Of a stretch of DNA of 64,000 bases, positions 5,753-62,069 are shown piece after piece. The stretch comes from Rhodocyclales bacterium (GTDB lineage: Bacteria > Pseudomonadota > Gammaproteobacteria > Burkholderiales > Rhodocyclaceae). The stretch lies in contig JACRIY010000004.1 of assembly GCA_016235805.1 (NCBI GenBank), forward strand, positions 1 through 64,000, written 5' to 3'. The notes beneath the pieces were generated by a model. It saw only the letters and a list, made by a program, of their open reading frames with translations. It made no database searches and was not told the origin of the DNA. The position numbers and the translations under genes are program-made. Position 1 is the stretch's first letter; each line of letters begins with the position of its first letter.

Positions 5753-8452
5753 TCAGTTCAGGGTGCGAGCGATTTCCTGGACTTCGAAAACTTCAAGCTG
5801 ATCACCTTCGTTGATCTCGTTGAAGTTCTTCAGGCTCAAACCGCACTCGAAACCTTCCTTGACTTCGCGCACGTCATCCTTGAACCGCTTGAGCGAATCC
5901 AGTTCGCCGGTATGGATCACCGCATTGTTGCGCAGCAATCGCACCGAAGCGTTGCGCTTGACGATGCCTGACAGCACCATGCAACCAGCCACCGCACCGA
6001 TGCGCGAGATGCGGAACACCTGGCGTATCTCGACGATGCCGAGCACGACTTCCCTCTTCTCGGGTGCCAGCATTCCGGACAAGGCGGCCTTCACTTCGTC
6101 CACCGCGGCATAGATGATGTTGTAGTAGCGGATATCGACACCGAGGCTCTCGGCAGCCTTGCGTGCGCCCACGTCGGCGCGGGTATTGAAGCCGATGACG
6201 ACCGCCTTGGAGGCCGCCGCGAGGTTGATGTCGGATTCGCTGATGCCGCCAACGCCGGCATGAACCACCATTACCTTGACTTCGGCGGTGGACAGCTTAT
6301 TCAGGGACTGCACCAGGGCTTCCTGGGAACCTTGCACGTCGGCCTTGATGATCAGCGGCAGGGTGCGAATCTCGCCCTCGGCCATCTGCTCGAACATGTT
6401 CTCGAGCTTGGCGGCCTGCTGCTTTGCCAGCTTGACGTCGCGGAACTTGCCCTGGCGGAACAGGGCGATTTCACGCGCCTTGCGCTCATCCAGGATGACC
6501 ATGCCCTCGTCGCCTGCAGCCGGCACATCGGTAAGGCCCTGGATCTCGACCGGAATGGAGGGGCCTGCGGAATCGACGGACTTGCCGTTTTCATCGATCA
6601 TGGCGCGTACCCGACCGAACACGGCGCCCGCCAGGAGCACATCGCCACGGCGCAGCGTTCCCGAGAGCACGAGTATCGTCGCTACCGGACCCTTGCCCTT
6701 GTCGAGTCGCGCTTCGATCACCAGGCCCTTGGCCGGTGCATCGACCGGCGCCACCAGTTCCAGTACCTCGGCCTGCAGCAATACCTGCTCCAGCAGGTCG
6801 TCGATGCCCTGGCCGGTTTTCGCCGAAACGCCGACGAACGGCGAGTCGCCACCGTATTCCTCGGGAACCACGCCTTCCGCGACCAACTCCTGCTTGACCC
6901 GCTCCAGGTTCGCATCCGGCTTGTCGATTTTGGTGACCGCCACGATCAGCGGCACATTGGCCGCCTTCGCGTGGTGAATTGCCTCGCGGGTCTGCGGCAT
7001 GACGCCGTCGTCGGCTGCAACCACGAGAATCACCAGGTCGGTTGCCTTGGCACCGCGAGCACGCATCGCGGTAAAGGCTTCGTGGCCCGGCGTGTCGAGG
7101 AAAGTGATCATCCCGCGCGGGGTTTCGACGTGATAGGCGCCGATATGCTGCGTGATGCCGCCCGCTTCGCCATGGGCCACGCGACTCTTGCGAATGTAAT
7201 CGAGCAGCGAGGTCTTGCCGTGGTCGACGTGGCCCATCACCGTAACCACCGGCGCGCGCGGCAACTGCACCACATCCTTGTGCTCGCCCTCGTCGGCCAG
7301 GAAAGCATCCGGATCGTCGAGCTTCGCGGCGAACGCCTTGTGTCCCAGTTCCTCGACCACGATCATCGCCGTTTCCTGGTCAAGCACCTGGTTGATGGTG
7401 ACCATCGAACCCATTTTCATCAATGCCTTGATGACTTCGGTGGCCTTGACCGTCATCTTGTGTGCCAAGTCGGCAACGGAAATGGTTTCCGGCACATGCA
7501 CTTCGCGCACGATCGCCTCGACCGGCTGCTGCACCTGTGTTTCCTCGGCATGGCCATGGCGACCGCCATGACGGCCGCCGCCTTTGGAACCTCGCCAGCC
7601 AGATGTACCGGCATCGCCACGAGTCTTGATCGCACGCCGCTTGGCGGCATCGTCCTTCCAGGCATCCTTCTTGGCCGGCTTGGCCTTGCCGTCTTCCGGC
7701 TTGGTCGCCGGTTTGTGGATAGTCCCCGAAACGCCCGCAGCGGCAGCGGCCTGCTCCTTGGCCTTCTTGGCTTCGGCAGCCGCAAGTTGCGCCTGCTGTT
7801 CGGCCAGCCGCGCTTCAGCTTCGGCACGAGCGCGCGCCTCGCGTTCGTTCTTTTCCTTGAATTCCGCTGCCTGGATCGCCGACAGCTTGCCCTGGCGTCG
7901 GGACTCGGCCTCACGCAATGCCTGCTGTGCCGGATCGATATGCGAACGTGCCGGCGCAGCCTGGGCTGCCACCGGCGCCTCTGGCGCAATCTCGACGACC
8001 GGCGCCGGTTCGGGAACGGGAACCTCCTCGACCACGGGAGTCGGCGCTGGCGCCACGGCGACTGGCTCGGCTACGATGACCGGGGCCTCGGCCGGGACCT
8101 CGACCGGTGCTTCGGCAACGACTTCTCCAGCGGCTTCGGCCGCCAGTTCACTGGCATCGCGCTTGACGAATACGCGCTTCTTGCGCACCTCCACCTGAAT
8201 CGTGCGCGCCTTGCCGGTGGAATCCGAGGCCCGGATCTCGCTGGTCTGCTTGCGTGTCAGGGTGATCTTGGCCTTGGGCGCGGTTTCGCCATGCGACTTG
8301 CGCAGGTAGTCGAGCAGTCGCGACTTGTCCTGTTCGGACAAGGTATCGTTGGAGGCTTCCTTGCTGACGCCGGCCTTGGCCAACTGCTCCAACAGGGCCG
8401 GCGCCGGCATTTTCAGTTCGGTCGCAAATTGTGAAACTGTCATCAAAGCCAT
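5753..8452 (-). CDS. infB: translation initiation factor IF-2
   Basis: 899 residues. IF-2 delivers fMet-tRNA to the 30S subunit and promotes subunit joining. An N-terminal IF2N helix bundle (1-55) is followed by a second IF2N-like block, then a long Ala/Pro/Glu-rich linker (about 90-330). The G domain has [11 protein letters not shown] near 406, DTPGHEAF and a TKID motif, followed by the EF-Tu-like and C-terminal initiator-tRNA-binding domains. The linker contains one copy of the dispersed 22-bp motif (8039-8060), read as part of AVAPAPT. MTVSQF at 8443 is a possible alternative start. Confidence 0.97.
8039..8060 (+). repeat. dispersed motif copy 1 (AGTCGGCGCTGG-N4-ACGGCG)
   Basis: Exact 12-base core, four variable bases (CGCC), then ACGGCG, followed by A. 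It lies antisense inside infB, where it encodes part of AVAPAPT in the linker. Confidence 0.85.
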
Positions 8453-8462
8453 GCCGTACCTC

Positions 8463-9944
8463 TCATTCTTCTTCGGCGAACCAGTGAGCGCGCGCCAAAG
8501 TAATCAGCGCCGTCGCCCGCTCGGCATCGATGCCGGTCATTTCCATCAACTCGTCGGTCGCCAGGTCCGCCAGCGCATCGCGGTTGGTAACGCCGTTCTT
8601 GGCCAGCTTCGCGGCGAGCGGCTTGTCCATGCCCTCTAGCGAGAGCATGTCATCCGCCACCTTTTCCATCTGTTCTTCGTCGACGATCGCTTCGGTCAGC
8701 AGCACGTTGCGTGCGCGCTCGCGCAATTCCGTCACCGTGGCCTCGTCGAACGCCTCGATTTCGAGCATTTCGGCGAGCGGAACGTAGGCGATTTCCTCCA
8801 GCGTCGAGAAGCCTTCCTCGATCAGGATATTGGCCACTTCCTCGTCGACGTCGAGCTTCTCCATGAACAGCGCGCGAATCGTGCTGTGCTCGGTCTCGGA
8901 GCGCTTCTGCGATTCCTCGATGGTCATCAGGTTGATGGTCCAGCCGGTCAATTCGGAAGCGAGCCGCACGTTCTGACCACCACGGCCGATGGCGATCGCC
9001 AGGTTGTCCTCGTCGACCACCACATCCATCGCATGCTTCTCTTCATCGACCACGATGCTCTGCACTTCGGCCGGGGCCAGGGCACCGATGACAAACTGGG
9101 CTGGATCGGCGGACCAGAGAATGATGTCAACGCGTTCGCCGGAAAGCTCGTTGGTCACCGCGGTGACGCGCGAACCACGCATGCCGACGCAGGTACCGAT
9201 CGGGTCGACACGCGGATCGTTCGACTTGACGGCGATCTTGGCGCGCATTCCGGCATCGCGGGCGGCAGCCTTGATTTCGAGCAGGCCGTCCTCGATCTCG
9301 GGAACCTCGAGTTCGAACAGCTTCATGATGAATTCGGGCGCGGTGCGCGACAGGATCAGCTGCGGCCCCCTCGCCTGCCGGTCGATCTTCATCAACCAGG
9401 CGCGCACGCGGTCACCTGGACGCAGGTTTTCCTTGGGGATCATCTGGTCGCGCGGCAGCAGCGCCTCGATGCGACCTGCCTCGATGATGGCACTGCCGCG
9501 CTCCATGCGCTTGACGGTGCCGCTGACGAGAAATTCCTTGCGATCGAGGAAGTCGTTGAGCAACTGCTCGCGTTCGGCGTCACGAATCTTCTGCAGGATG
9601 ACCTGCTTGGCGGCCTGGGCACCGATGCGCCCGAAGTCGATGGGTTCCAGCGCTTCCTCGATGTAGTCCTCGAGGGCGATGTCGGAAATCTGCTGCTGCG
9701 CGGCGGTAATGCCGATCTGCTGCTCGGGATCCTCGACCATATCGTCGGCAACCACCAGCCAGCGACGGAAGGATTCGTATTCTCCGGTTTCGCGATCGAT
9801 GTCCACGCGCACGTCGGCTTCGTCATTGGTGCGCTTCTTCGTGGCAGACGCCAGCGCCATTTCGAGGGCACCAAAAACGATGTCCCGCGGAACATTCTTT
9901 TCGCGGGCCAGGGCATCGACCAACAGCAGCAATTCACGGCTCAT
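8463..9944 (-). CDS. nusA: transcription termination/antitermination protein NusA
   Basis: 493 residues. NusA binds RNA polymerase and modulates pausing, termination and rRNA antitermination. Domains in order: N-terminal RNAP-binding domain (1-125), S1 (about 135-200), two KH domains (about 230-345, with [14 protein letters not shown] and [12 protein letters not shown]), and two C-terminal acidic repeat domains (about 365-493). ATG 9944 ([13 protein letters not shown]) matches the family start. An in-frame extension to 10028 overlaps rimP and was rejected. It lies between rimP and infB. Confidence 0.97.
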
Positions 9945-9963
9945 GTGAGTTCTCCGGCATTTA

Positions 9964-11654: not shown

Positions 11655-12192
11655 GATCGATCACCCTTTCAATTTCAGTAAGTGGCGGCAGTTCGGTGAG
11701 ACTGCGCAAGCCGAGGTCATCGAGAAACTTTCGCGTCGTGGCATACAGCGCAGGACGTCCCGGTGCGTCGCGATGCCCCACGGCATCGATCCAGCCGCGT
11801 CCTTCGAGCGTCTTCAGGATGTTCGGCGACACTGCGACACCGCGCACATCCTCGATGTCGCCGCGCGTCACCGGCTGGCGATAGGCGATGATCGCCAGCG
11901 TTTCCATCACGGCACGCGAGTATTTCGGCGGCTTGTCGTTCTTCAGCTTGTCGATGTAGGACTGGTATTCGGGACGCGTCTGGAAACGCCAGCCGGACGC
12001 AAGTTGCACCAGCTCCACGCCCCGATTCGCCCAGTCGCGACGCAAGTCATCGAGCAGCGTGCGCCAGGTATCGTCGTCGAACTCCTGGTCGAACAGCTTC
12101 TTCAGTTCGGACAGGGGCAGCGGTTCTGCCGCCACCAGGAGGACGGTTTCCAGCACGCGCTTGTAGTCATCGGGTTTATACAGCGGCAGCAT
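11443..12192 (-). CDS. scpB: segregation and condensation protein B
   Basis: 249 residues. ScpB is the winged-helix (kite) partner of ScpA in the SMC condensin complex. The core runs about 1-180 with [47 protein letters not shown] (about 93-119) and [15 protein letters not shown]. Residues about 185-249 are a disordered Pro/Asp/Gly-rich tail that lies entirely in the overlap with rluB. Its ATG overlaps the scpA stop region by 17 bases, so the pair is translated as a unit. Confidence 0.95.
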
Positions 12193-13042
12193 CGGGCAAC
12201 TTTACGTAAATGGGCGCCATGGCCTCGTTCTGGGTAATTTCAATGAGTGACTCGCGCGCCAGTTCCAGCATCGCCAGGAAGCTCACCACCAGGCCCTGGG
12301 CACCGAGGGTCAGATCGAACAACTGGTCGAACATCACATAGCCGCCGCCCTGCAGGCGGCGCAGGATGATGCTCATGTGCTCGCGCACCGAGAGCTCTTC
12401 GCGGTGAATTTTGTGGTGCTGATGCACGCGCGCCTGTTTCATCAGCGACAGCCACGCTATCTGAAGATCATTGAGGCTGACCTCAGGCTGGCGCTCCGCC
12501 ACCTTGTCGGCGATCCACACGGTGATCCACTCGTAGTCGCGCCCGGCGTGTGGCATTTCGTCCAGCTTCGCAGCCGAAGCCTTCATGCGCTCGTACTCGA
12601 TGAGGCGGCGTACCAGTTCCGCGCGCGGATCCTCCGGCTCGCCGTTCTCCGCCTTAGGCGGGCGTGGCAGCAGCATGCGCGACTTGATTTCGATCAGCAT
12701 CGCCGCCATCAGCAGGTATTCGGCAGCAAGTTCCAGGTTGCCCTTGCGCATTGCCTCGACGTAAACGAGGTATTGCGCAGTGAGCGGCGCCATCGGGATG
12801 TCCAGCACGCTGATGTTGGCGCGACGTATCAGGTACAGCAGAAGGTCGAGCGGGCCTTCGAAGGAATCGAGGATGATCTCCAGCGCATCCGGCGGGATGT
12901 ACAGGTCGCGCGGCATCTCGGCCATCACCTCGCCATAAACCTTGGGCAGGTGATGCTCCAGTGTCTCGCCCGGCGCAAGAGTCGGCGCTGGCGGAACGGC
13001 GAACGGGACGACGGTCGCCCCGATGTTCGCGTTTTCGATCAC
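12176..13042 (-). CDS. scpA: segregation and condensation protein A
   Basis: 288 residues from the GTG at 13042. ScpA is the kleisin that bridges SMC heads. After a Pro/Ala-rich N-terminus, the family signature [18 protein letters not shown] (about 58-75) and the helical middle [15 protein letters not shown] lead to [22 protein letters not shown]. The C-terminal winged helix includes [17 protein letters not shown]. The frame stays open to 13321 inside trpS. GTG 13042 forms a GTGA overlap with the trpS stop, and an ATG at 12925 (MAEMPRDL) is an alternative. The N-terminal stretch carries dispersed-motif copy 2. Confidence 0.9.
12980..13001 (+). repeat. dispersed motif copy 2
   Basis: AGTCGGCGCTGG-CGGA-ACGGCG followed by A. 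It lies antisense in the variable N-terminal part of scpA, read as AVPPAPT, the same frame as copies 1 and 10. Confidence 0.85.
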
Positions 13043-14241: not shown

Positions 14242-14242
14242 G

Positions 14243-19944: not shown

Positions 19945-20730
19945 TTACATGACTTCGCCACCGGCGATGGCGATGGATTGTCCGTTGATGCTTGCCGCGC
20001 CCTCGCCGCACAGCCAGAGCACGCTGTCGGCGACTTCGTCGGGCGTGACCAGCCGCTTCATGGGATTGCCCTTCGCCAGTTCGGCGCGCGCCTGCGTTTC
20101 GTCGCGGCCGGTCTGCGCGGCTATGTTCGCTGCGGCGCGGGCGACGATGTCGGTATCGGTGTAGCCGGGGCAGACGGCGTTGAAGGTGATGTTCTTCGCG
20201 GCGAACTCGAGCGCCAGGGATCGCGTCAGGCCGATCACGCCATGCTTGGCCGCGCAGTAGGCGGATACGTAGGCATAGCCGACCAACCCCGCCGTGCTGG
20301 CGACGTTGACCACCCGACCCCAGCCGGCGGCGAGCATGTCGGGCAGCGCGGCCTGCGTGCAGTGGAACACGCCGGCGAGGTTTACCGCCAGCATGCGTTC
20401 GAAAAGCTCGGCGCCGGTCTTGCGAAAGGGGGCGCTCTCGGCCTGGCCGGCGTTATTGACCAGCACCGTAATCGGGCCGAAGCCTTCCCTCGCCGCCGCC
20501 ATCGCGCGTTCCACAGCAGCACGATCGGCAACCTCCATGGTCACGGCGCGACAGCGCTGCGCGCCGCCCAGTCGTGACGCAACGTCGGCAAGCGCCGTCG
20601 CATCGCGGCCGGTGATGGTGACGCGATAGCCCGCGCCGACCAGGGCCGCAGCGATTGCGGCGCCTATGCCGCGACTGCCGCCGGTCACCAGCGCATGCCG
20701 TCCCTGCGTGCTCACGCCGGCCTCAGGCAT
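19945..20730 (-). CDS. SDR-family oxidoreductase (probable 3-hydroxyacyl-CoA dehydrogenase role)
   Basis: 261 residues. Classical short-chain dehydrogenase: cofactor motif TGGSRGIG (16-23), NNAG (92-95), catalytic Ser145, Tyr158 and Lys162 in YCAAK, and a C-terminal [12 protein letters not shown]. In the aerobic 2-aminobenzoyl-CoA clusters of Azoarcus an SDR and an enoyl-CoA hydratase follow the monooxygenase/reductase, and the order here is the same. That the substrate is a 3-hydroxyacyl-CoA is inference from context. It overlaps the upstream flavoenzyme gene by eight bases. Confidence 0.9.
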
Positions 20731-23026
20731 TCAGCGCGAGTTGGGCCGCGCGCTCGAGGTTGCGTTCGAGCTGGATCTTCCCGCCCTGATACTGTTTGGG
20801 CCAGGCCACGTCCCTGACACCCTGCTCCGCTGCCGCATGCAGGGTCCAGGCCGGATCCGCCAGATGCGGGCGGGCCAGCGCGCAAAGGTCGGCGCGACCG
20901 GCAGCGATGATGGTATTGACGTGATCGGCCTCGAAGATGTTGCCCACCGCGATGGTCGGCACATCGAGTTCGTTGCGGATCTGGTCGGAGAACGGCACCT
21001 GGAACATGCGGCCATAGACCGGCGCCTCGTCCTTGCTGACCTGGCCCGACGAGACGTGGATGATGTCGGCGCCCGCCGCCTGGAACAGCTTCGCCACTTC
21101 GACCGAATCGTCGGGCGTGATGCCGCCAGGTACCCAGTCGTGGGCCGAGATGCGCACTGACATCGGCTTCTCTGTCGGCCAGACGGCGCGCATGGCCTTG
21201 AACACTTCCAGCGGGTAGCGGCAGCGGTTTTCCAGACTGCCGCCGTACTCATCCGAACGCCGGTTGGTCAGAGGCGAAATGAAGGACGACATCAGGTAGC
21301 CGTGAGCGGCATGGAACTCGACCATGTCAAAGTCGGCGCTGGCGGCACGGCGCGTCGCGGCGACGAAGTCCGCCTTGACGCGATCCATATCGGCACGCGT
21401 CATTTCGCGCGGAACTTGCGAGGTGCCGGCGACATAGGGCAGCGACGAGGGCGCGATCAGAGACCAGTTGCCGGAATCCAGCGGCTGGTCGATGCCGTCC
21501 CAGGCCAGTTTGGTCGATCCCTTGCGCCCGGCGTGGCCGATCTGCAGCGCCATCTTCGCCGCACTGTTGGCGTGAACGAAATCGACGATGCGCTTCCAGG
21601 CGGCAGCCTGCTCGTCGGTCCATATTCCGGCGCATCCCGGGCTGATGCGGGCATCGGGCGCGGTGCAGGTCATCTCGGTCATCACCAGCGCGGCGCCACC
21701 CAGGCCACGCGCCGTGTAGTGCTGGAAGTGGAAATCACCGGGCATGCCGTCGGCGGCCGAATAGGTGCACATCGGCGAAACGACGACGCGATTGGCGAGG
21801 CGCATGCCGCGCAGGCTGAACGGGGTGAACATCGGCGGCACGGCCTTCTGGCCGGGTGGCGTGGCGACCCCGCAGCGCGCGGCGAACCAGCGGTCGAAAT
21901 CGTCCGTATAGGCCGGGTCGCGCAATTTCTGGTTGGCATGGCCGACGCGCTGGCTCCCCGTGAGTACGGCGAAGGCGAACTGCTCTGGTTCCATATCGAC
22001 ATAGCGATCGACCTGCTCGAACCAGGTCATGCGGTTGCGCGCCGCGCTCTGCAGCTTGAGCGCCTCGATCTCGCGCTCGGATTGATAGCGGGCGAGACGG
22101 CTGGGCACGTCGCCCTCGCTGCTGTTAATGACATTGACCAGCGCCCGCGCATCTTCCATGGCCAGCTTGGTGCCGGAACCGATGGTGAAGTGTGCCGTAT
22201 GCGCGGCGTCGCCCAGCAGCACGATGTTGTCCTTGAACCAGCGCTCGCAGAGCACGCGGTTAAACTTGATCCAGACCGCCGAACCGCGCAGATGGCGGGC
22301 GTTCGAGATCAGCCTGGCGCCGTTCAGCATGTCGGCGAACAAGTCCTCGCAAAAGGCGATCGACTGGTCCGGATCCATCTTGTCGATGCCGGCCCTGAGC
22401 CAGGTTTCTTCTGGCGTCTCAACGATGAAGGTGGCCCATTCTTCGTTGAATTGATAGGCGTGCAGGTTGAACCAGCCCCACCGGGTTTCCTTGAAGCCGA
22501 AGGTGAAGGCATCGAGTTTCATCTTGGTGCCGAGCCAGATGAAGCGACACTTGCGCACATCAATGCGCGGATTGAAGTGGTCGGCATACTTGGCCCGCGT
22601 GGTCGAATTGACCCCATCCGAACCGATTACCAGGTCGTACTCGCGCGAATAGTCGTCCGGATCCTTGAACTCGGTCTCGAACTGCAGGCGCACACCCAGT
22701 TCCTTCGCCCTAGCCTGGAAGATCTGCAACAGCTTGAGGCGGCCAATGCCGCAGAAGCCATGCCCGCCGGAAACCAGGCGCCGTCCCTTGAAGAACACGT
22801 CGACGTCATCCCAGTGATGGAAGTTGCGCTCGATTTCTTCCACCACCCGTGGGTCGTCCTGGCGAAAGCCGTCCATGGTCTTGTCCGAGAAGACGATTCC
22901 CCAGCCGAAAGTGCTGTCAGGCTGGTTGCGCTCGATCACGGTGATGTCGGCGGCCGGGTTGGCCTTCTTCATCAAAATCGAGAAATACAGGCCGGCGGGG
23001 CCGCCGCCCAGGCAAACGATGCGCAT
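20723..23026 (-). CDS. bifunctional flavin monooxygenase/OYE-type reductase (2-aminobenzoyl-CoA monooxygenase/reductase or salicylyl-CoA 5-hydroxylase type)
   Basis: 767 residues, a natural fusion. Residues 1-370 are a group A FAD monooxygenase: [20 protein letters not shown] at the N-terminus, a DGVNSTTR block, and [21 protein letters not shown] (about 270-290). Residues about 390-767 are an old-yellow-enzyme FMN domain starting [17 protein letters not shown], with [11 protein letters not shown] and [10 protein letters not shown]. This layout and length match the Azoarcus 2-aminobenzoyl-CoA monooxygenase/reductase, which hydroxylates and then reduces the ring. The same fusion is also annotated as salicylyl-CoA 5-hydroxylase. 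The OYE part carries dispersed-motif copy 3. It is the first gene of the operon, behind a strong promoter. Confidence 0.9.
21331..21352 (+). repeat. dispersed motif copy 3
   Basis: AGTCGGCGCTGG-CGGC-ACGGCG. It lies antisense in the OYE domain of the bifunctional flavoenzyme, read as RRAASADF, a different frame from copies 1 and 2. Confidence 0.85.
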
Positions 23027-24260: not shown

Positions 24261-25144
24261 CCAGCACACGCGGCATCATCCTCGCCGGCGGTTCCGGCAC
24301 CCGGCTGCACCCGGTCACGCTGGCGGTTTCCAAACAGCTGCTGCCGATCTACGACAAACCGATGATCTACTACCCGCTGACCACGCTGATGCTGGCCGGG
24401 ATACGCGAAATCCTGCTGATCTCGACGCCGCTCGACACGCCGCGCTTCGAGCAACTGCTGGGCGACGGTTCGCAATGGGGCATCCAGATTCAGTACGCGG
24501 TGCAGCCCAGTCCCGACGGTCTGGCCCAAGCTTTCATCATCGGCCGCGAGTTCGTCGGAGAGAATCCGTCCGCCCTGGTGCTGGGCGACAACCTGTTCTA
24601 TGGCCACGATTTCGCCACCCAGTTGCAGCACGCCACGAAAGTCGGCGCTGGCGCCACGGTGTTTGCCTATGCCGTCAGCGATCCGGAACGCTACGGCGTG
24701 GTCGCCTTCGACGAAACGGGTCGCGCCGTCAGCATCGAGGAAAAGCCCAAGGCCCCAAAGTCGCGCTATGCGGTGACCGGGCTCTACTTCTACGACAACC
24801 AGGTCTGCGACATCGCGGCGAAGCTCAAGCCCTCGCCGCGCGGCGAACTGGAGATCACCGACCTGAACCGCGTCTACCTCGAAAAGGGCCAGCTCAAGGT
24901 CGAGATCATGGGGCGCGGCATGGCCTGGCTCGATACCGGCACCCACGAGTCGCTGCTCGAAGCCGGCCAGTTCATCGAGGTCATCGAAAAGCGGCAGGGC
25001 CTGAAGGTCGCCTGCCCCGAGGAGGTGGCCTGGCGCCAGAAATGGATCGACGACGCACAACTGGCGAAGCTGGCCCTGCCGTTGGCCAAGAGCCAGTATG
25101 GCCAGTACCTGCAGAAACTGCTGGAGCACGAGGTGCAGGGATGA
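24257..25144 (+). CDS. rfbA: glucose-1-phosphate thymidylyltransferase
   Basis: 295 residues. First committed step of dTDP-L-rhamnose synthesis (glucose-1-phosphate plus dTTP). The nucleotidyltransferase motif [16 protein letters not shown] starts at residue 6, with [25 protein letters not shown] and [17 protein letters not shown] further on. ATG 24257 overlaps the rfbB stop as ATGA; an in-frame start at 24227 lies within rfbB. Dispersed-motif copy 4 encodes VGAGATV around residue 130. Confidence 0.96.
24640..24661 (+). repeat. dispersed motif copy 4
   Basis: AGTCGGCGCTGG-CGCC-ACGGTG, sense orientation in rfbA, read as KVGAGATV. Confidence 0.8.
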
Positions 25145-25683: not shown

Positions 25684-26546
25684 AGATCCTGGTCACTGGC
25701 TGCGCCGGACAACTCGGGCGTGAATTGAAGCGCTCGCTGGCCTGTCTGGGCGAGGTGGTGGCTTGCGACCGCCGCCAGCTCGACCTCGCCGATCCCGACG
25801 CATTGCGCGCCGCGGTGCGTGCCATCGCACCCACCGCCATCGTCAACGCCGCCGCCTACACCGCCGTCGACAAGGCGGAAACCGAGACGAATCTGGCACA
25901 GGCCATCAACGCCACGGCGCCCGGCATCCTCGCCGAGGAGGCGAAGCGGCTCGACGCACGGCTGATCCACTACTCGACCGACTACGTCTTTGACGGCAGG
26001 AAATCCGGCGCCTACACCGAGGACGACAACCCGGCACCGCTGTCCGCCTACGGTCGCAGCAAGCTCGACGGCGAGCGGGCGATCGCCGCCGCCGGAGTGC
26101 GACACCAGGTGTTCCGCACCTGCTGGGTATACGGCCTGCACGGCGCGAACTTCATGAAAACCATGCTGCGGCTCGGCCGCGAGCGCGACGAACTGCGTGT
26201 CGTCGGCGACCAGTTCGGTGCGCCGACCTGGACCCGCCACCTGGCCGATGCGACCGCCCTGGTCCTCGCCCGCAAGCACGCACCCGACGGTTTGTACCAC
26301 CTGGCCGCCGCCGGCGAGACGAACTGGCACGAGTATGCCGAAGCCATCTTCGCCACGGCGCTGCAAAGCGGCCTGCTGGAAAAAGTGCCGACGGTTCACC
26401 GTATCACCAGCGCCGACTATCCGCTGCCGGCGCCGCGCCCGACCAACTCGCGGCTCGACTGCGGCCGCTTCCGGCGCGACTTCGGACTTGGCCTGCCCGA
26501 CTGGCGCAGCGGCCTCGCCGACTGCCTGGCCGATGCGCGTTTCTGA
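25680..26546 (+). CDS. rfbD: dTDP-4-dehydrorhamnose reductase
   Basis: 288 residues. Last step of dTDP-L-rhamnose synthesis, NAD(P)H-dependent reduction at C4. Begins [15 protein letters not shown], with NAAAYTAVDKAE, STDYVFDG and the catalytic Tyr/Lys in YGRSKLDGE. The C-terminal DYPLPAPRPTNSRLDC is the usual family ending block and contains dispersed-motif copy 5 on the opposite strand. The start is GTG at 25680, overlapping the rfbC stop. Confidence 0.95.
   Translation: MKILVTGCAGQLGRELKRSLACLGEVVACDRRQLDLADPDALRAAVRAIAPTAIVNAAAYTAVDKAETETNLAQAINATAPGILAEEAKRLDARLIHYSTDYVFDGRKSGAYTEDDNPAPLSAYGRSKLDGERAIAAAGVRHQVFRTCWVYGLHGANFMKTMLRLGRERDELRVVGDQFGAPTWTRHLADATALVLARKHAPDGLYHLAAAGETNWHEYAEAIFATALQSGLLEKVPTVHRITSADYPLPAPRPTNSRLDCGRFRRDFGLGLPDWRSGLADCLADARF
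26397..26418 (-). repeat. dispersed motif copy 5
   Basis: Minus strand AGTCGGCGCTGG-TGAT-ACGGTG followed by A, inside rfbD. The protein segment (VHRITSADY) is near a conserved family motif, so part of the match could be protein-driven. Confidence 0.65.
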
Positions 26547-32566: not shown

Positions 32567-32620
32567 CGCAAAAACGCCGTATCCCCGGCGCCGACTTTCT
32601 CGGACGGCGCCGGACACTCC

Positions 32621-37660: not shown

Positions 37661-39309
37661 TTCAAGCGCGCGACCTGCGCGGCGGCACCCTGCTGGCGCT
37701 GCTGTTGGCCTTCTGCCTGTTCTGGTTCGGCACCCTGGAACAGCGACGCCTGATCAACCCCGACGAGGGCCGCTACGCCGAGATTCCGCGCGAGATGGTG
37801 GCTAGCGGCGACTGGCTGACGCCGCGCCTGAATGGCTTCAAGTACTTCGAGAAGCCCGTGCTGCAGTACTGGGCCACGGCCGCCGCCTTCAGCGCCTTCG
37901 GCGAACATCACTGGACCGCCCGCCTCTGGCCGGCCCTGACCGGCTTCCTCGGCGTGCTATTCACCGCCTACGCAAGCACCCGCCTGTTCAACCGGCGTGC
38001 CGGCCTGATCGCCGGCGCCGTGCTCGGCGGCAGCCTGCTCTGGAACCTGATCGGTCATGTCAATACCCTGGACATGGGCGTCAGCTTCTTCCTCGCCGCC
38101 GCAGTCTTCGCGATTTGCCTGGCGCAGCGCGACGATGCCGATCCGGGTGAAAGTCGGCGCTGGCAGGACGGCGCCTGGGTGCTGCTGGCGCTCGCCGTGC
38201 TGTCCAAGGGACTGATCGGACTGGCGCTGCCGGCATTCGTCGTCGTCGCCTATGCAGTTTGGCAGCGCGACCCCGGCTTCATCCTGCGCATCCGCCCCGG
38301 GCGCGGCCTGGCGATCCTGCTCGCCATCACCGCGCCCTGGTTCGTTGCGGTATCGCTGACCAATCCCGAATTCGCCCATTTCTTCTTCATCCACGAACAT
38401 TTCGAGCGCTTCCTGACCAAGACCCATGGCCGCTACCAGCCCCCCTGGTACTTCATCCCGATACTGCTGGCCGGCATGCTGCCCTGGCTCGGCGCGCTGG
38501 CCCAGGGCCTGTTCGCCGGTGCGCGGCGAGAGCCGGGCCTGCGCTTCCAGCCGCGTCGCTTCCTTTTCGCGTGGGCAGTTCTGGTATTCGCCTTTTTCTC
38601 GGTTTCCGGGTCCAAGCTGCCTTCCTACATCCTGCCGATCTTTCCTGCCCTCGCCGCGCTGATCGGCCTCTACCTGACCGAAGGAACAACCTCCCGCCGC
38701 ATCGCCTGGCTCGCGCTTCCCGCCGCACTGATCGGCGCGGCGTCCCTGCTGCTGGTTCCCTTCGTCACGCGCTTCGCCAGCGAAAAAGTACCCGTAGCTC
38801 TGTTCGAGGCCTACCAGCCCTGGCTCTACGCAGGCGCCGCAGCCCTGTGCCTGGCCAGCCTGGCGGCGTTCCGCCTGGGACGGCAGGGACGCAACGTGGC
38901 CGCGGTGTTCGCCCTCGCCTTCGGCGGCTTTGCCTTCGGCCAGGGCATCCTGCTCGGCCACGACAAACTTGCCGTGGCCAACTCGGCACACGACGTCGCC
39001 GCGACCATTCGTCCCCAACTCGCGCCGGACACTCCGTTCTTCAGCGTCGATACCTACGACCAGAGCCTGCAGTTCTACCTGAAGCGCACCACGACCATGG
39101 TCGCCTATCGCGATGAACTCGCGTTCGGCATCTCCCGCGAACCCGAGAAGTTCATCGCCGACCTTGCCGGATTCGAGCGCACCTGGCTGGCCACTCCGGC
39201 TGCCTGGGCGCTGATGTCGCCCGCCACCTGGCAGGAAATGCAGAGCAAGGGATTGCCGATGACCGAAGTCCTGCGCGACACGCGCCGCGTCATAGTGAGA
39301 AAACCATGA
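37648..39309 (+). CDS. arnT: ArnT-like membrane glycosyltransferase (lipid A aminoarabinose transferase)
   Basis: 553 residues with about twelve membrane helices. GT-C enzyme moving 4-amino-4-deoxy-L-arabinose from undecaprenyl phosphate to lipid A, giving resistance to cationic peptides. The first periplasmic loop carries the acidic catalytic motif NPDEGRYAEIPREM (about 31-44), followed by KYFEKPVLQYW. The C-terminal soluble region is short. The rest of the operon supports the ArnT call. Dispersed-motif copy 6 lies near residue 170, in a loop. Confidence 0.9.
   Translation: MRALVQARDLRGGTLLALLLAFCLFWFGTLEQRRLINPDEGRYAEIPREMVASGDWLTPRLNGFKYFEKPVLQYWATAAAFSAFGEHHWTARLWPALTGFLGVLFTAYASTRLFNRRAGLIAGAVLGGSLLWNLIGHVNTLDMGVSFFLAAAVFAICLAQRDDADPGESRRWQDGAWVLLALAVLSKGLIGLALPAFVVVAYAVWQRDPGFILRIRPGRGLAILLAITAPWFVAVSLTNPEFAHFFFIHEHFERFLTKTHGRYQPPWYFIPILLAGMLPWLGALAQGLFAGARREPGLRFQPRRFLFAWAVLVFAFFSVSGSKLPSYILPIFPALAALIGLYLTEGTTSRRIAWLALPAALIGAASLLLVPFVTRFASEKVPVALFEAYQPWLYAGAAALCLASLAAFRLGRQGRNVAAVFALAFGGFAFGQGILLGHDKLAVANSAHDVAATIRPQLAPDTPFFSVDTYDQSLQFYLKRTTTMVAYRDELAFGISREPEKFIADLAGFERTWLATPAAWALMSPATWQEMQSKGLPMTEVLRDTRRVIVRKP
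38152..38173 (+). repeat. dispersed motif copy 6
   Basis: AGTCGGCGCTGG-CAGG-ACGGCG, sense in arnT, read as SRRWQDG, a third reading frame relative to the other copies. Confidence 0.85.
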
Positions 39310-39677: not shown

Positions 39678-39784
39678 GCGCCATCCGCAGGGCCGTCCCA
39701 AGGATGGAGCAGCCAACAACACGGAGCCGCGCAGCGGCGAACACCAGTCACCCCCTTTCCCGGAAAGGGGGGCGGGGGGAATGA
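39674..39784 (+). CDS. 36-codon bridging frame between the flippase gene and arnB
   Basis: ATG 39674 overlaps the flippase stop as ATGA, and the TGA at 39782-39784 overlaps the arnB ATG (39781) as ATGA. The product (MSAIRRAVPRMEQ to KGGRGE) is low-complexity and probably not functional. The frame may keep ribosomes moving across a 104-base insertion, described at 39751-39771. Confidence 0.3.
   Translation: MSAIRRAVPRMEQPTTRSRAAANTSHPLSRKGGRGE
39751..39771. repeat. G/C-run hairpin in the arnB leader
   Basis: CCCCCTTTCC-C-GGAAAGGGGG, 10-bp perfect arms. It is part of an apparently inserted 104-base segment in an otherwise overlap-linked operon. The purine-rich 3' arm also supplies the arnB ribosome site. 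A similar C/G hairpin (CCTCCCC-GTGA-GGGGAGG) lies near 54164-54181. Confidence 0.5.
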
Positions 39785-40911
39785 CCTCAACCTTTCTCCC
39801 ATTTACCCGCCCGTCGATCGACGAGGAAACCATCGCCGACGTCGCTGCTGTGCTGCGTTCGGGCTGGATCACCAGTGGGCCGAAGGTGCAGGCCTTCGAG
39901 GCGGCGCTGTCTGCCCACTGCGGCGGCCGCCCGGTACGCGCCTTCAGCTCCGGCACGGCAACCCTGGAAGTGGCCTTGCGCCTGGCAAAAGTCGGCGCCG
40001 GCGATACGGTGATCACCACGCCCCTGACCTGGGTCGCCACCGCCAACGTGATCCTCGAAGTCGGTGCGCGGCCCATCCTGGTGGACATCGACCCGGTCAC
40101 GCGCAACATCGACCTCGACCGCATCGAAGCCGCGATCGCGCCCGACACCCGGGCCATCATCCCGGTCGACCTGGCCGGCCTGCCGGTGGATCGCGACCGG
40201 CTGTACGCCATCGCCGAACGACGCCAACTGCGCGTGATCGAGGATGCGGCGCAATCCTTCGGCGCTGCCTGGAACGGGCGGCCGATCGGCAACTCCTTCT
40301 GCGCGGAACGCGACTTCGTCTCCTTCAGCTTCCACGCCAACAAGAACCTGACCACCGGCGAAGGCGGCGCCCTGGTGCTGCCGGCCGATGTCGATCCCGG
40401 CCTGTGCGAACGGCTGCGCCTGCAGGGCGTACGGCGCTTTCCCGACGGCGGCATGGAGGTCGATGTACTCGGCGGCAAGTCCAACATGACCGACATCGCT
40501 GCCGCGATCGGCCTTGGCCAGCTGAAGCACCTGGCCGACTTCACCGCCCGACGCCGCGACCTGGCCCGGCGCTACTTCGAATGCATCGACCGCGATCTTG
40601 GCCTGGAACTGCCCGTGGCCGACTTCACCCAGTCGAACTGGCACATGTTCCAGGTGCTGCTCCCCGCCGGCACGGATCGCGGCCGCTTCATCGCCCGCAT
40701 GAAGGATCTGGGCATCGGCGTCGGCGTGCACTACCCTCCGCTGCACCTTTTCTCGCTCTATCGGGCGCTGGGCTTCAACCCGGGCGACTTCCCCCATGCG
40801 GAAAGGATCGGTGCCGCCATCGTTTCCCTGCCGCTGTTTCCCTCGATGCTGGACAGCGACGTCGAGCGCGTATGCAGCGCGCTGGCCTCCTGCCTGCCGG
40901 AGTTCGCATGA
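39781..40911 (+). CDS. arnB: UDP-4-amino-4-deoxy-L-arabinose aminotransferase (DegT/DnrJ/EryC1 family)
   Basis: 376 residues. PLP-dependent sugar aminotransferase making UDP-Ara4N. Motifs: RPSIDEETIADVAAVLRSGWITSGP (start), FSSGTATLEVALRLAKVGAGD, VIEDAAQSFGA, and the PLP lysine near 188 in HANKNLTTGEGGAL. The C-terminus shows the usual GVHYPPLHLFSLYR. ATG 39781 follows a very G-rich leader. A near copy of the dispersed motif (39990-40011) encodes KVGAGDTVI, a natural family motif. It is followed by arnC with a four-base overlap. Confidence 0.92.
   Translation: MTSTFLPFTRPSIDEETIADVAAVLRSGWITSGPKVQAFEAALSAHCGGRPVRAFSSGTATLEVALRLAKVGAGDTVITTPLTWVATANVILEVGARPILVDIDPVTRNIDLDRIEAAIAPDTRAIIPVDLAGLPVDRDRLYAIAERRQLRVIEDAAQSFGAAWNGRPIGNSFCAERDFVSFSFHANKNLTTGEGGALVLPADVDPGLCERLRLQGVRRFPDGGMEVDVLGGKSNMTDIAAAIGLGQLKHLADFTARRRDLARRYFECIDRDLGLELPVADFTQSNWHMFQVLLPAGTDRGRFIARMKDLGIGVGVHYPPLHLFSLYRALGFNPGDFPHAERIGAAIVSLPLFPSMLDSDVERVCSALASCLPEFA
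39990..40011 (+). repeat. dispersed motif, near copy (one core mismatch)
   Basis: AGTCGGCGCCGG-CGAT-ACGGTG: C replaces T in the core. It lies in arnB over the GAGDTVI motif, so protein conservation could explain it. Confidence 0.45.
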
Positions 40912-45453: not shown

Positions 45454-46896
45454 ATGAACGCCAAGCGCACCAAGCCCGCAGCAAATACGGTCACCAAGCT
45501 CTTCGTGCTCGACACCAACGTCCTGATGCACGACCCGCTGAGCCTGTTCCGTTTCGAAGAGCACGACATCTACGTGCCGATGATGACGCTGGAAGAGCTC
45601 GACGCCAACAAAAAGGGCATGTCGGAAGTTGCGCGCAACGCACGCCAGAGCAGCCGCCTGCTCGACGAGATCGTCAGCGGCGCCGAGCACGACATGGCCA
45701 GCGGCATCGAACTCACCGCAGCCTCGCACGAACTGGCGACCGGCCGCCTGTTCTTCCAGACCGAAGCCATCAACGGCATTCTTCCCAGTTCGCTGCCAAC
45801 CGCCAAGGCGGACAACCAGATCATCGGCGTCGTGATGCACCTGGGGCAGAAGTTTCCCGGGCGCCCGGTCATCCTGGTTTCCAAGGACATCAACATGCGC
45901 ATCAAGGCCCGCGCGCTGGGCCTCGAAGCGCAGGACTACTTCAACGACAAGGTGCTCGAAGACACCGACCTGCTCTACACCGGCACCCGCGAATTGCCGG
46001 CCGACTTCTGGGATACCCACGGCAAGGGCCTCGAATCCTGGAAGAAGGAAAGCCGCACCTACTACCGCATCAAGGGCCCGCTCTGCCCCGAATTGCTGGT
46101 CAATGAATTCGTCTGGCAGGAAGGCCCGCAACCGCTGCAGGCCTGGGTAAAAGTCGGCGCTGGCAAGACGGCGGAACTGGAAACCCTGATCGATTACAGC
46201 CATGCCAAGAACGCGGTGTGGGGCATCACCGCGCGCAATCGCGAGCAGAACTTCGCGCTGAACCTGCTGATGAATCCGGATATCGACTTCGTCACGCTGC
46301 TGGGCCAGGCCGGCACCGGCAAGACCCTGCTGACGCTGGCCGCCGCACTGACGCAGACCATGGAGACCAAGCTCTTCGCGGAGATCATCATTACACGCGT
46401 CACGGTTCCCGTCGGCGAGGACATCGGCTTCCTGCCCGGCACCGAAGAAGAAAAGATGACGCCGTGGATGGGTGCACTGGAAGACAACCTCGACGTGCTC
46501 AACAAGCCGGCGGAATCGCCCGCCGGTGGTGCCGCCGCCAACTATGTCGGCGACTGGGGCCGCGCCGCGACCATGGACCTGATCCGCAGCAGGATCAAGA
46601 TCAAGTCGCTCAACTTCATGCGCGGCCGCACCTTCATGAACAAGTTCCTCATCATCGACGAAGCGCAGAACCTGACGCCGAAGCAGATGAAGACGTTGAT
46701 CACCCGCGCCGGACCGGGCACCAAAGTGGTCTGCCTGGGCAACATCGCCCAGATCGACACGCCCTACCTCACCGAGGGCAGTTCGGGCCTGACCTACGTG
46801 GTGGACCGCTTCAAGGGCTGGGCACATTCCGGCCACGTGACGCTGCAGCGCGGCGAGCGCTCGCGCCTGGCCGAACACGCGGCGGAAGTGCTGTAA
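45454..46896 (+). CDS. PIN-PhoH ATPase
   Basis: 480 residues. An N-terminal PIN nuclease domain (about 14-150; LFVLDTNVLMHDP, and later Asp residues in SKDINMRIKA) is fused to a PhoH P-loop ATPase (about 235-480; Walker A GQAGTGKT near 286, Walker B FLIIDEAQN near 398, GRTFMNKF). PIN-PhoH proteins are described as RNA helicase/ribonucleases in some bacteria; the role here is unproven. The linker (about 215-240) includes dispersed-motif copy 7. ATG 45454 follows a Pro-rich leader in the same frame. Confidence 0.92.
   Translation: MNAKRTKPAANTVTKLFVLDTNVLMHDPLSLFRFEEHDIYVPMMTLEELDANKKGMSEVARNARQSSRLLDEIVSGAEHDMASGIELTAASHELATGRLFFQTEAINGILPSSLPTAKADNQIIGVVMHLGQKFPGRPVILVSKDINMRIKARALGLEAQDYFNDKVLEDTDLLYTGTRELPADFWDTHGKGLESWKKESRTYYRIKGPLCPELLVNEFVWQEGPQPLQAWVKVGAGKTAELETLIDYSHAKNAVWGITARNREQNFALNLLMNPDIDFVTLLGQAGTGKTLLTLAAALTQTMETKLFAEIIITRVTVPVGEDIGFLPGTEEEKMTPWMGALEDNLDVLNKPAESPAGGAAANYVGDWGRAATMDLIRSRIKIKSLNFMRGRTFMNKFLIIDEAQNLTPKQMKTLITRAGPGTKVVCLGNIAQIDTPYLTEGSSGLTYVVDRFKGWAHSGHVTLQRGERSRLAEHAAEVL
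46152..46173 (+). repeat. dispersed motif copy 7
   Basis: AGTCGGCGCTGG-CAAG-ACGGCG, sense in the PIN-PhoH gene, read as KVGAGKTAE between the two domains. The GAGKT is not the Walker A motif, which lies further on. Confidence 0.85.
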
Positions 46897-50229: not shown

Positions 50230-50406
50230 TCAGCCGCAGTAGCGCAGGTTGCTGATATTGAGCAGCAAGTCCGCCCCGCCATAGGCGGCGAAGGCTAGGC
50301 CGAGGGCGGCGACCATCACCACCAGGCCGGCAGCCCACAACCAGCGCCATGCCCGCGATGCGAGGGGCGACCGGCGTGCCTGCGGCAACTGGCTCGGAGT
50401 ATCCAT
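50230..50406 (-). CDS. 58-residue single-pass membrane protein, unknown function
   Basis: A basic Pro/Arg-rich N-terminus (1-20) leads to one strong membrane segment (about 23-43, LWAAGLVVMVAALGLAFAAYG), then a short LLLNISNLRYCG tail with a single Cys near the C-terminus. The frame lies 41 bases downstream of the RluF-like gene on the same strand and is probably in its transcript. I do not recognise the family, and there is no good ribosome site, so this is a modest call. Confidence 0.45.
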   Translation of the reverse strand: MDTPSQLPQARRSPLASRAWRWLWAAGLVVMVAALGLAFAAYGGADLLLNISNLRYCG

Positions 50407-50447
50407 GGCGACATCCTGCGCAGGCCGACGTCCCGAGTCAAGCACCG

Positions 50448-51182
50448 TCAAAAGACCTCGCCTTCGCGCAGGAAACGCCACTGGCCGAGCGGCAGGTCGC
50501 CCAGGCGCACGCGCCCGATGCGCACGCGCTTGAGCCCGGTGACGCGCAAGCCGACCAGTTCGCACATGCGGCGGATCTGGCGCTTGCGACCTTCGGTCAG
50601 CACGAAACTCAGCTGGTCGGGATTGGCCCAGGCCACCTTGGCCGGCCGCAACTTCTTGCCGTCGAGTTCGAGGCCGTGGTTGAGCAGCGCCAGGCCGCGC
50701 ACGTCGAGCGCGCCTTCGACCCGCACCAGGTACTCCTTCTCCACCTTCGAGTCGTCGCCGATCAATTGGCGCGCCACGCGACCGTCCTGGGTCAGGACCA
50801 GCAGTCCGGTGGAATCGATGTCCAGCCGTCCGGCCGGTGCCAGGCCCTTCAGGTGCGAAGGCTGGAAACGCTGCCGGTCGCCCGCGACCTGGGTTTTTGC
50901 GGAAACCAGGCTGGCCGCCGGCTGGTGGCCGTCCTCGGCCTGGCCGGAGACATAGCCCATCGGCTTGTGAATCAGGATCGTCGCCTGCCGCGCCTGCGTC
51001 GCGCGCGCTTCGGGAGCCAGCGTTATCACCGCATCGGGTGCCGCACGCGTGCCCAGTTGCGTCACGCGCTGGCCATCGACGAAAACCAGCCCGCGTTCGA
51101 TGTAGCCATCTGCCTCGCGACGCGAGCACAAGCCGCGCTCCGCCAGCAGTTTGGAAACCCGGGTACCCTGCGTATCATCCAT
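50448..51182 (-). CDS. rluF: RluF-like rRNA/tRNA pseudouridine synthase (RsuA family)
   Basis: 244 residues. An S4 RNA-binding domain (about 8-60, [25 protein letters not shown]) precedes a RsuA-type catalytic domain with the nucleophile in [17 protein letters not shown] (about 123-139) and the motif [23 protein letters not shown]. RluF acts on 23S U2604 (and tRNA-Tyr). The MCELVG wording is RluF-like, but assignment within the family is not certain. ATG 51182 lies 25 bases from the divergent rlmJ start. Confidence 0.85.
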
Positions 51183-51206
51183 AGACCCGAATTCTATCCC
51201 GCCCCC

Positions 51207-52064
51207 ATGCTCAGCTATCGCCACGCCTTCCATGCCGGCAACCATGCCGACATCCTCAAGCACCTGGTGCTGACGCTTTGCCTGCGGCACATGAACAGCA
51301 AGGACAAGCCCTGGTTGCTGCTCGACACCCACGCCGGGGCCGGCCTGTATGCGATCGACTCCGAAGAGGCGAAGAAGACCGGCGAATACATCGACGGCAT
51401 CGCCCGCCTGTGGAACCGCGTCGACCTGCCGGCACCGATCAAGCCCTACATGGATGCGCTGCAGGCCTGCAACGGCGGCCTGAAGCTGCGCCGCTATCCC
51501 GGTTCGCCCTGGCTCGCCGGCCATTTCGCGCGCGAAATCGACACGCTGCGCTTCTGCGAACTGCATTCCACGGACTTCGCCTTGCTGCGCCGACAGTTCA
51601 AGGATGCCGGGCGTCGCGTCAAGGTCGAACAGTGCGATGGTTTCGAAATCATGAAGGCCGCGCTGCCGCCGCCCTCGCGGCGCGGACTGGTGCTGATCGA
51701 TCCCTCCTACGAGATCAAGAGCGACTACCCGCGCGTGGTCGCCGCAGTCAAGGACGGCCTCAAGCGCTTCGCCACCGGCAGCTATCTCGTCTGGCTGCCC
51801 TTCCTGCCCAGCATCGAGGCCCGCGCCCTGCCCGACAAGCTTAAAAAGCTGCCGGCCGACTGGCTATGCGCCAGCCTCACGGTGCGCGGACCGGCCACCG
51901 AAGGCCGTGGCATGACCGGCAGCGCGATGTTCGTGGTCAACCCGCCCTGGACCCTGAAAGCGGACCTGGAGGCATCGTTGCCGTGGCTGACGAACGTGCT
52001 GGCGCTGGATGGAAAGGCGGGATGGGCTTTGGATCAATCCGCCTCGACAGCGAGCGCGCCCTGA
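51207..52064 (+). CDS. rlmJ: 23S rRNA (adenine(2030)-N6)-methyltransferase RlmJ
   Basis: 285 residues. RlmJ methylates A2030 of 23S rRNA. The opening [22 protein letters not shown] is diagnostic. [11 protein letters not shown] (about 47-57) is the SAM-binding motif, and the adenine-methyltransferase catalytic motif is DPSY ([14 protein letters not shown], about 167-180). A helical insertion (about 65-110) is typical of the family. Divergent from the RluF-like gene, so two rRNA modification enzymes share an intergenic region of 24 bases. Confidence 0.95.
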
Positions 52065-52072: not shown

Positions 52073-52094
52073 CGCCGTAGCGCCAGCGCCGACT
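52073..52094 (-). repeat. dispersed motif copy 8, outside any gene
   Basis: Minus strand AGTCGGCGCTGG-CGCT-ACGGCG followed by A. It occupies almost all of the 31-base gap between the convergent rlmJ and acetoacetate-CoA ligase genes, so protein coding does not explain it. Confidence 0.85.
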
Positions 52095-52095
52095 C

Positions 52096-54081
<1,986 letters not shown>

Positions 54082-54710: not shown

Positions 54711-54737
54711 CGATCAAATCAGTCGATCGAGGTCAGC

Positions 54738-59536: not shown

Positions 59537-59585
59537 TCGCCTTCCGGCAGGCGGCGGGGCTTCCCCCGCTCGCCGATCTATTTCC

Positions 59586-61376: not shown

Positions 61377-61391
61377 TGGCTTACTCCGTGA

Positions 61392-62069
61392 TCATTTGTG
61401 CAAGAGGTAATGACGGTCGTCGAAGCTGCCGACCCAGTGCGGGGCATAGACCACCATCAGGGTGATCAGTGCGCCGTTGAGCCAGGCCTCGGCGAAACCG
61501 AGCAGTAGATAATAAGGCAGGTAGTCGTCGAGCAAAGTCGGCGCTGGATACACGGCGGCGAGCCACAGCAGCGCGCTGGCGAGCAATCCCGTGGCGATCA
61601 CCGCCGCCGCCGCGCCGAAAAAGGCCGTGACGAAGACATAGACGAAAAAATTGCCGGGCAGCCAGCGCATGACGCCGCGCCGGATCGCCTCGGCGAGCAG
61701 TACCGGAAACACGGCCAGCACCAGTGCATTGAGACCGTAGGCCAGCCAGCCTTCGCGACCGAGCAGTTCGCCGTTCAGCGTGACGCCGGCCAGCACCAGC
61801 GAGAGGCCGATGATGGCCAACTGGCGACCGAACATCAGCGTGAACATCGTCGCGCCCAACAGATGCAGGTTCAGGCCCGGCTTGACGCCGGCCTTCATGC
61901 TCCATGCCAGCACGAGCAGCACAATGGTGCCGAGCCAGACATTGAGCTGTCCGGAATCGGCCAAGCGCCGCCAAGGCGCAGTTCGCAGGCACCAGAGCCA
62001 CGAGATGACCAGCGGAAACCAGGCCCCGAGCGCCCAGGCTTGCGGAAACAGGGCGTCGGGGAAGTTCAT
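61392..62069 (-). CDS. CbiM-like multi-pass membrane protein (energy-coupling factor permease family)
   Basis: 225 residues, six or seven membrane helices. GLNLHLLGATMFTLMFGRQLAI (about 65-86) and LLGFAEAWLNGALITLMVVYAPHWV are typical of the CbiM/CbiL-type S-component family for cobalt or nickel uptake. No ATPase or other ECF subunit is nearby, so a transporter role is uncertain. Dispersed-motif copy 10 encodes AVYPAPT in a loop near residue 175. It lies between etfA and the large acyl-CoA dehydrogenase. Confidence 0.8.
   Translation of the reverse strand: MNFPDALFPQAWALGAWFPLVISWLWCLRTAPWRRLADSGQLNVWLGTIVLLVLAWSMKAGVKPGLNLHLLGATMFTLMFGRQLAIIGLSLVLAGVTLNGELLGREGWLAYGLNALVLAVFPVLLAEAIRRGVMRWLPGNFFVYVFVTAFFGAAAAVIATGLLASALLWLAAVYPAPTLLDDYLPYYLLLGFAEAWLNGALITLMVVYAPHWVGSFDDRHYLLHK
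61536..61557 (+). repeat. dispersed motif copy 10
   Basis: AGTCGGCGCTGG-ATAC-ACGGCG, antisense in the CbiM-like gene, read as AVYPAPT. Confidence 0.85.

Follow-up and report, generated by a model that had tools for sequence, protein, structure and literature searches.

We analyzed the first 64,000 nucleotides of contig JACRIY010000004.1 (assembly GCA_016235805.1, Rhodocyclales bacterium); this whole stretch is called the window hereafter. It carries dispersed copies of a DNA word composed of the 12-mer AGTCGGCGCTGG, four variable bases, and ACGG, first noticed in an earlier reading of the same DNA (the original prediction). We think that this word is rather likely to be an uptake sequence, akin to the DNA uptake sequences (DUS) of Neisseriaceae and the uptake signal sequences (USS) of Pasteurellaceae, and that it is kept by biased uptake and recombination. 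Among the possibilities raised originally, this one fits most features of the word and is the one supported by our analysis. It is the best match because copies are abundant and lack a clear polarity, occur in several reading frames within genes and in excess between genes, sometimes form inverted pairs, are conserved in place among relatives, and lost this conservation in one lineage.

The exact 12-mer occurs 10 times in the window, at precisely the positions and strands originally listed, for a mean of 0.02 in shuffled sequences. In all 10 copies N4-ACGG follows directly on the 3' side, as had been described, and two further copies have a single mismatch: the near copy previously reported at 39990 (+) and another one at 32577-32596 (-). 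An alignment of 37 copies from G001, a congener with a complete genome, with 38 from the genome of the window (the window and 30 loci) gave a consensus of around 25 bp, rARAGTCGGCGCTGGCGRNACGGCG, with little information beyond it. The purine-A-purine on the 5' side of the 12-mer is conserved, as are C13, G14, R15, C21, and G22. Hence, the fixed N4 spacing and the ACGG block stand as first proposed, but the word is longer than the 22 bp then given. Similarly, of the CGA thought to be favored after ACGG, the CG is conserved and the A is merely weak. The copies vary in their mismatches and variable bases and are not one single sequence.

To count the word in other genomes, we used the 12-mer followed by N4-ACGG (the full pattern), with the reversed pattern as a control. 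The genome of the window (G000; 3.83 Mb, 80% complete) is Sulfuritalea-like, in the Rhodocyclaceae, and the nearest loci of its IF-2 gene include two of Sulfuritalea (90 and 92% identity). It has 357 exact 12-mers (189 on the + and 168 on the - strand), i.e., around 90 per Mb, for 4 occurrences of the reversed 12-mer (2 on each strand), and N4-ACGG continues 334 of the 357. All 31 genomes of the genus have the full pattern, in 7 to 468 copies, and none has the control, so the excess foreseen in the original prediction holds genome-wide and in the relatives. Most of these genomes (25) have 119 to 468 copies, the species with the most being G004. The six others are G026 (7 copies), G016 (35), G006 (40), G025 (41), G002 (47), and G021 (79). 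At the level of the family, 28 of the 249 genomes have at least 50 copies, all within six genera (g1, g8, g19, g38, g46, and g64, the latter including Rugosibacter, locus L037); one genome of g19 (G269) has none. In the other 62 genera of the family, 48 of the 219 genomes have 1 to 12 copies, often clustered in one contig. Outside the family, 1 to 4 copies were found in 16 of 386 genomes of the order, and 1 or 2 copies in 8 of 368 genomes of the class besides G000. The control gave 2 hits in the family, 6 in the 399 genomes searched in the order, and 1 in the class, which makes a total of 9 in 1,048 genome scans (genus, family, order, and class, these groups partly overlapping). Among the genomes sampled, the abundant state is limited to one family.

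Searches tolerating up to four mismatches gave densities of 133-217 copies per Mb in motif-rich samples of at least 40 kb and 6-17 per Mb in G026; small loci (8-17 kb) of G002, G021, and G030 had no such copies. In the motif-rich samples, the distribution of mismatches shows a dip at 4-6, followed by a background rise. The word also supplies the most over-represented 12-mer in 400 kb of G001, with 40 occurrences against 0.6. No comparable rival word was found among the over-represented 10- and 12-mers of nine samples (152 kb of G026, 142 kb of G269, 60 kb each of G034, G055, G071, G073, G089, and G096, and 40 kb of G044), which are small enough for a sparse word to escape. Four of the strongest of these words, located in G044, G026, G071, and G096, were mostly local arrays or hairpins; loci L306 and L314 of G026 have short GCAGAGGCGCAGAG-type arrays. 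Our impression, which does not rest on counts, is that the four variable bases often start with TG in Rugosibacter (G277) and mostly with CG in Sulfuritalea, which could possibly be a mild dialect. Some genera that are otherwise nearly motif-free have clusters of copies, such as five within 41 kb in G111 (C1:1461267-1502264) and those in contigs C66 and C104 of G085 and C50 of G084. We read such stray copies as possible islands acquired from donors that bear the motif, or from mobile elements.

One might have expected such abundance to result from chance, codon bias, or a protein motif shared by the host genes. We analyzed a 464-kb sample, comprising the window and 400 kb of G001 taken as 20 regularly spaced pieces of 20 kb, in which a simple gene caller identified 403 genes (86.9% coding). 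The 403 kb of coding DNA have 32 full patterns, for a mean of 0.07 and a maximum of 2 in 200 shufflings of synonymous codons within genes. This codon-preserving null had been put forward with the original prediction as its refuting test, and it gave no refutation in the sample. In the 464 kb, 77 copies have at most four mismatches over 25 bp, among which 48 (62%) are in genes and 29 are not wholly in genes. They use five of the six reading frames, chiefly those encoding KVGAGxTA (20), AVxPAPT (13), and RRxASAD (10). The KVGAGKT of the PhoH gene in the window does resemble a P-loop, but it lies outside it. Given the codon null, the five frames, and the rarity of control hits across the genome scans, we count this explanation as refuted, with a negligible chance of being right. 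Among the intergenic copies, 11 are in 3.9 kb of gaps between convergent genes, 12 in 30.9 kb between tandem genes, and 4 in 8.3 kb between divergent ones.

The word is without clear replication polarity, since 30 copies in G001 are oriented along replication and 35 against it. Of the 187 + copies listed for this genome, 100 lie in the first 47% of its chromosome, a slight excess (P = 0.046, one-sided) that we treated as noise beside the 30 and 35. This disfavors the recombination site that had been suggested as an option, at least of the kind of Chi or the FtsK orienting polar sequences (KOPS). Like these, the word is dispersed over the whole chromosome, but it lacks their polarity with replication and is about three times as long. 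Concerning spacing, only 2 of 83 gaps between copies in G000 are shorter than 1 kb, for 9.6 expected by random placement (P = 0.0004; all 15 listed contigs with at least two copies), and the gaps as a whole vary no differently from random ones (P = 0.33). One gap, in contig C3, is of 279 bases. The scarcity of close neighbors and the long, bipartite, conserved site with its fixed spacing would also fit the binding site of a cytoplasmic protein that organizes the chromosome or regulates genes (like the MatP/matS, SlmA, or Noc sites), and if such a protein were lost, its sites would decay, as seen in G026 (see below). We nevertheless find this unlikely, because hundreds of copies have no clear link with the replication strand, 62% of the copies are in genes and in five frames, the site is not palindromic, and a range of 7 to 468 copies within one genus would be surprising for a housekeeping function.

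To assess how the sites are conserved, we searched eight genomes of congeners, by 20-kb window piece, for collinear stretches, and aligned those of seven. Leaving G026 apart, 66 comparisons with motif-rich relatives could be aligned, and we counted the 62 with at least five flank-matched controls. At least 22 of the 25 letters are identical in 46 of these 62 comparisons (12 window sites), for 23.9 expected from the controls, it being understood that the relatives share ancestry and that the comparisons are thus not independent. Taken species by species, G009, G004, and G008 show clear protection and G014 a slight one. Sulfuritalea species and Rugosibacter share the word in scpA, despite the indel-filled linker that surrounds it. 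The spread or selection at the level of DNA, claimed originally, is shown by the genome-wide excess, the codon null, and the conservation of sites.

One site informs on the origin of the copies. At position 1343 of L037, the word replaces the ordinary codons of the orthologs by in-frame substitutions, with no indel. Several other motif sites are in stretches where relatives are rich in gaps, which, together with the phage genes that carry the word in linkers (see below), is what one would expect from the footprint of a very small self-inserting mobile element, another of the options first listed. The origin by substitution, the lack of any longer shared flank outside the 25 bp, and the spread of mismatches and variable bases make this highly improbable. 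The word resembles repetitive extragenic palindromes (REP) and miniature inverted-repeat transposable elements (MITE) in being dispersed and sometimes in hairpins, but unlike them it is mostly within genes, has no unit beyond 25 bp, and in one case arose by substitution. We saw no inserted unit with ends or target duplications, the latter not having been searched systematically.

The conservation of sites is gone in G026. Over the 9 sites compared in this one species, identity is 0.769 in the word and 0.766 in its flanks, and 2 of the 9 sites reach 22 letters. Recognizable remnants are kept, e.g., the rmlD site is one of 16 fixed bases off. In a tree based on 15.7 kb, G026 falls within the motif-rich clade, where it groups with G004, G021, G002, and G028 (support 81), the next to join being G001 (support 96). 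As protection is gone and the species is nested among motif-rich ones, it has probably lost whatever keeps the word. The low-copy G025, G002, and G021 branch at other places in this clade. This suggests more than one loss within the genus, although two of the nodes have weak support (54).

Two convergent gaps of G001 each have a head-to-head pair of copies, 30-31 bp apart. The first pair folds into a perfect stem of 25 bp (-64.8 kcal/mol) and the second into one of 23 bp (-59.9 kcal/mol), both with a z of about -10. Both arms of the second pair carry the same off-consensus base, indicating that the hairpin is kept. We found only these 2 pairs among 170 copies in 60 partly overlapping loci, which do not include the window. 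The copies in convergent gaps of the window have no such pairs; one has a moderate z of -2.6 and the other (0.85) folds no better than shuffled sequences. The inverted pairs and the excess in convergent gaps might suggest a family of transcription terminators or of elements acting on RNA. Yet, given how few the pairs are, and that most copies are single, inside genes, and in both orientations, this is very unlikely.

The word is also found in phages. Among viral contigs, at least 120 stretches have the pattern, for 24 with the reversed pattern, and many of them also carry the wider 25-bp context. The largest open frame matched a PHROG family in 8 of the 9 viral stretches scanned, so there are real phages among the motif-bearing stretches. 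The matches include portal or head-tail adaptor, tail fibre J, RecE, primase, and ParB-like proteins. The copies are in unrelated genes, often as a KVGAGxTA linker, and there are usually 1-3 per fetched stretch. Their presence in such contigs, and the clustering of stray copies in other genera, would be compatible with a packaging or mobilization signal of a phage, a gene-transfer agent, or a conjugative element, spread by transduction. We regard this as quite unlikely, since the phage copies are not in one packaging locus. Two other observations concern these contigs. Phage DNA methyltransferases in several contigs that differ in G+C content (L132, L146, L214, and other viral contigs) have a C-terminal tail that encodes the motif as ...FEDAKVGAG.TAV. 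In L182 (885-2237), five copies in the same direction are spaced by 316, 316, 316, and 385 bp, in a stretch that also has a gene for tail fibre J.

If the word is an uptake sequence, it would be the preferred target of a DNA receptor at the cell surface, for which a minor pilin of a type IV pilus is the likeliest candidate, and free DNA tagged with it would be taken up and recombined more. Mutations creating or improving the word would then be over-represented in incoming DNA. Copies would thus spread and persist where genes tolerate them, i.e., in protein linkers and gene ends, and inverted pairs between convergent genes would be reused as terminator-like hairpins. Lineages losing the reader, such as G026, would let their copies decay. 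The competence of the cells, the role of the reader as an uptake receptor, and its identity are all inferred from these patterns.

Parts of the machinery for competence are widespread. ComEC passed the cut-off in 59 of 61 genomes; of the other two, G002 has a piece at the end of a contig and G007, 79% complete, has no convincing match. DprA was found in 55 of 58. Of 60 genomes, 57 have a pilin of the ComP_DUS family (PF16732) above the cut-off. Its gene adjoins other prepilin-like genes in the 20 loci that we read, and the solved chains nearest in sequence are other pilins. As leads to the receptor, neither this family, nor the pilin loci, nor the charge of prepilin-like proteins separates motif-rich genomes from motif-poor or motif-free ones, and we rejected all three.

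Several observations weigh against an uptake sequence. ComEC and DprA do not track the motif, as both are also present in G026 and in motif-free genera, and DprA was not found in three of the 58 genomes searched: G000, G004 (which has the most copies), and G006. The ComP_DUS pilins are found equally in motif-rich and motif-free genomes. Among the prepilin-like proteins of the loci read, judged by eye, no minor pilin differed in charge between motif-rich genomes and the others. ComEA was above the TIGR00426 cut-off in just 6 of 61 genomes, namely 4 of the 6 Rugosibacter and the motif-free G034 and G042, and searches with TIGR00426 and HHH_3 detected no short ComEA in motif-rich Sulfuritalea. 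The HHH_3 matches in Sulfuritalea are frames of 546-940 aa, save three of 181-314 aa in the motif-poor G026; those of around 800 aa are presumably Tex rather than ComEA, given their length. This mixed profile neither proves nor excludes competence. Furthermore, the copy density is well below that of Neisseria or Haemophilus, the copies in phages are not predicted by the simplest account of a self tag, and our literature searches found no experiment on uptake or competence in these bacteria.

The copies of the window are given in Table 1. The original prediction had placed one copy outside genes. This exact copy (52073-52097) is indeed intergenic, but so is the near copy at 32575-32599, which had not been listed; the genes on either side converge in both cases. 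The latter is on the 3' side of a parC-like gene (30002-32341 +) and of a small doubtful open reading frame (32429-32566 +), and has a partial inverted copy (fold of -23.6 kcal/mol, z -2.6). The sites differ in their conservation. The one in infB is kept in G009 and has no motif in the 5 other alignable relatives. The scpA word occupies the same place in L032 (G007), G014, G004, and the Rugosibacter locus L037, has one core base changed in G009, G008, and L031 (G025), is interrupted in G001, and is absent in G026, L035 (G021), and the Sterolibacterium locus L036. We paired named loci with genomes by their identical counts of the word. The rmlD site has 16 of 16 fixed bases in the six motif-rich relatives aligned. 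For the CbiM-like gene, 2 of 7 relatives were alignable and neither has a full copy. The KVGAGKTA encoded at 46149 was considered as the P-loop of PhoH and ruled out: a P-loop-like GQAGTGKT is around 50 residues downstream in the translation. The window also has, at 39673-39780, an interspersed intergenic repeat of around 105 bp, with many occurrences among the matches listed in eight Sulfuritalea genomes. It matches 8 times within 400 kb of G001 and twice within the samples of G026; in the window it has no Rfam match and its folding is not exceptional.

Table 1. Copies of the word in the window, with the genes or gaps that contain them.
Feature	Coordinates	Strand	Location
Motif copy, 4 mismatches to the 25-bp consensus	8036..8060	+	infB (IF-2, 5753-8410 -), frame AV.PAPT, variable linker
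Motif copy	12977..13001	+	scpA (12176-13042 -), indel-rich linker
Motif copy	21328..21352	+	Bifunctional salicylyl-CoA 5-hydroxylase gene (20723-23026 -)
Motif copy	24637..24661	+	rmlA (24257-25144 +)
Motif copy	26397..26421	-	rmlD (25680-26546 +)
Near copy, 1 mismatch in 16 fixed bases	32575..32599	-	Intergenic, before 32621-34048 -
Motif copy	38149..38173	+	ArnT-like glycosyltransferase gene (37648-39309 +), frame SRRWQDG
Near copy, 1 mismatch in 16 fixed bases	39987..40011	+	DegT/DnrJ aminotransferase gene (39781-40911 +)
Motif copy	46149..46173	+	PIN-PhoH gene (45454-46896 +), encodes KVGAGKTA between the PIN and PhoH domains
Motif copy	52073..52097	-	Convergent gap between RlmJ-like gene (50349-52064 +) and acetoacetate-CoA ligase gene (52096-54081 -)
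Motif copy	53958..53982	+	Acetoacetate-CoA ligase gene (52096-54081 -)
Motif copy	61533..61557	+	CbiM-like gene (61392-62069 -)

A 2025 paper states that Neisseriaceae and Pasteurellaceae are the only families known to discriminate self DNA by such a word (PMC12616744). In the open-licence PMC literature, preprints excluded, our searches returned nothing about this word or about uptake sequences of Rhodocyclaceae. We see the chances as evenly balanced that this is a third system, evolved independently in free-living Betaproteobacteria, with a bipartite word of 25 bp, a new receptor, more than one loss in a single genus, and a self tag borrowed by phages. If true, such a system in environmental bacteria would have close relatives that lost the word, and the receptor could be found by comparing gene contents. 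It would also help to test whether selfish drive or benefit causes such words to spread.

By sequence, the word is neither a DUS nor a USS and hence is a member of neither family. As with the DUS of Neisseriaceae, whose receptor is ComP, copies number in the hundreds and are scattered over both strands, within genes as well as at their ends, inverted pairs form terminator-like hairpins, and one word is common to several related genera while other relatives are without it. The sequence, compared by eye, is different, and the word is around twice as long (25 vs 10-12 bp). The DUS is GCCGTCTGAA, and the ACGGCG found here, which reads CGCCGT on the other strand, recalls it, so few shared bases being weak evidence. 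DUS dialects with a CTG core are described in the 2025 paper (PMC12616744). Neisserial DUS have been described as often forming inverted-repeat terminators and argued to arise largely by recombination (PMC2397512), and uptake words have been argued to originate gradually, by point mutation and uptake bias (PMC1939737). Similarly to the USS of Pasteurellaceae, the word has a strong core and a second, separate block. The second blocks of USS are A/T-rich, whereas the one found here is GC-rich. The word also lacks the USS cores AAGTGCGGT and ACAAGCGGT and is found in different hosts; ComN/PpdA is the receptor predicted for USS in the same 2025 paper (PMC12616744). No general orientation bias was observed for USS according to PMC2346458. 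The share of intragenic copies, 62% here, is close to the 65% quoted there for H. influenzae USS, set against about 86% in a reviewer exchange, which adds that a later count differed (PMC2346458).

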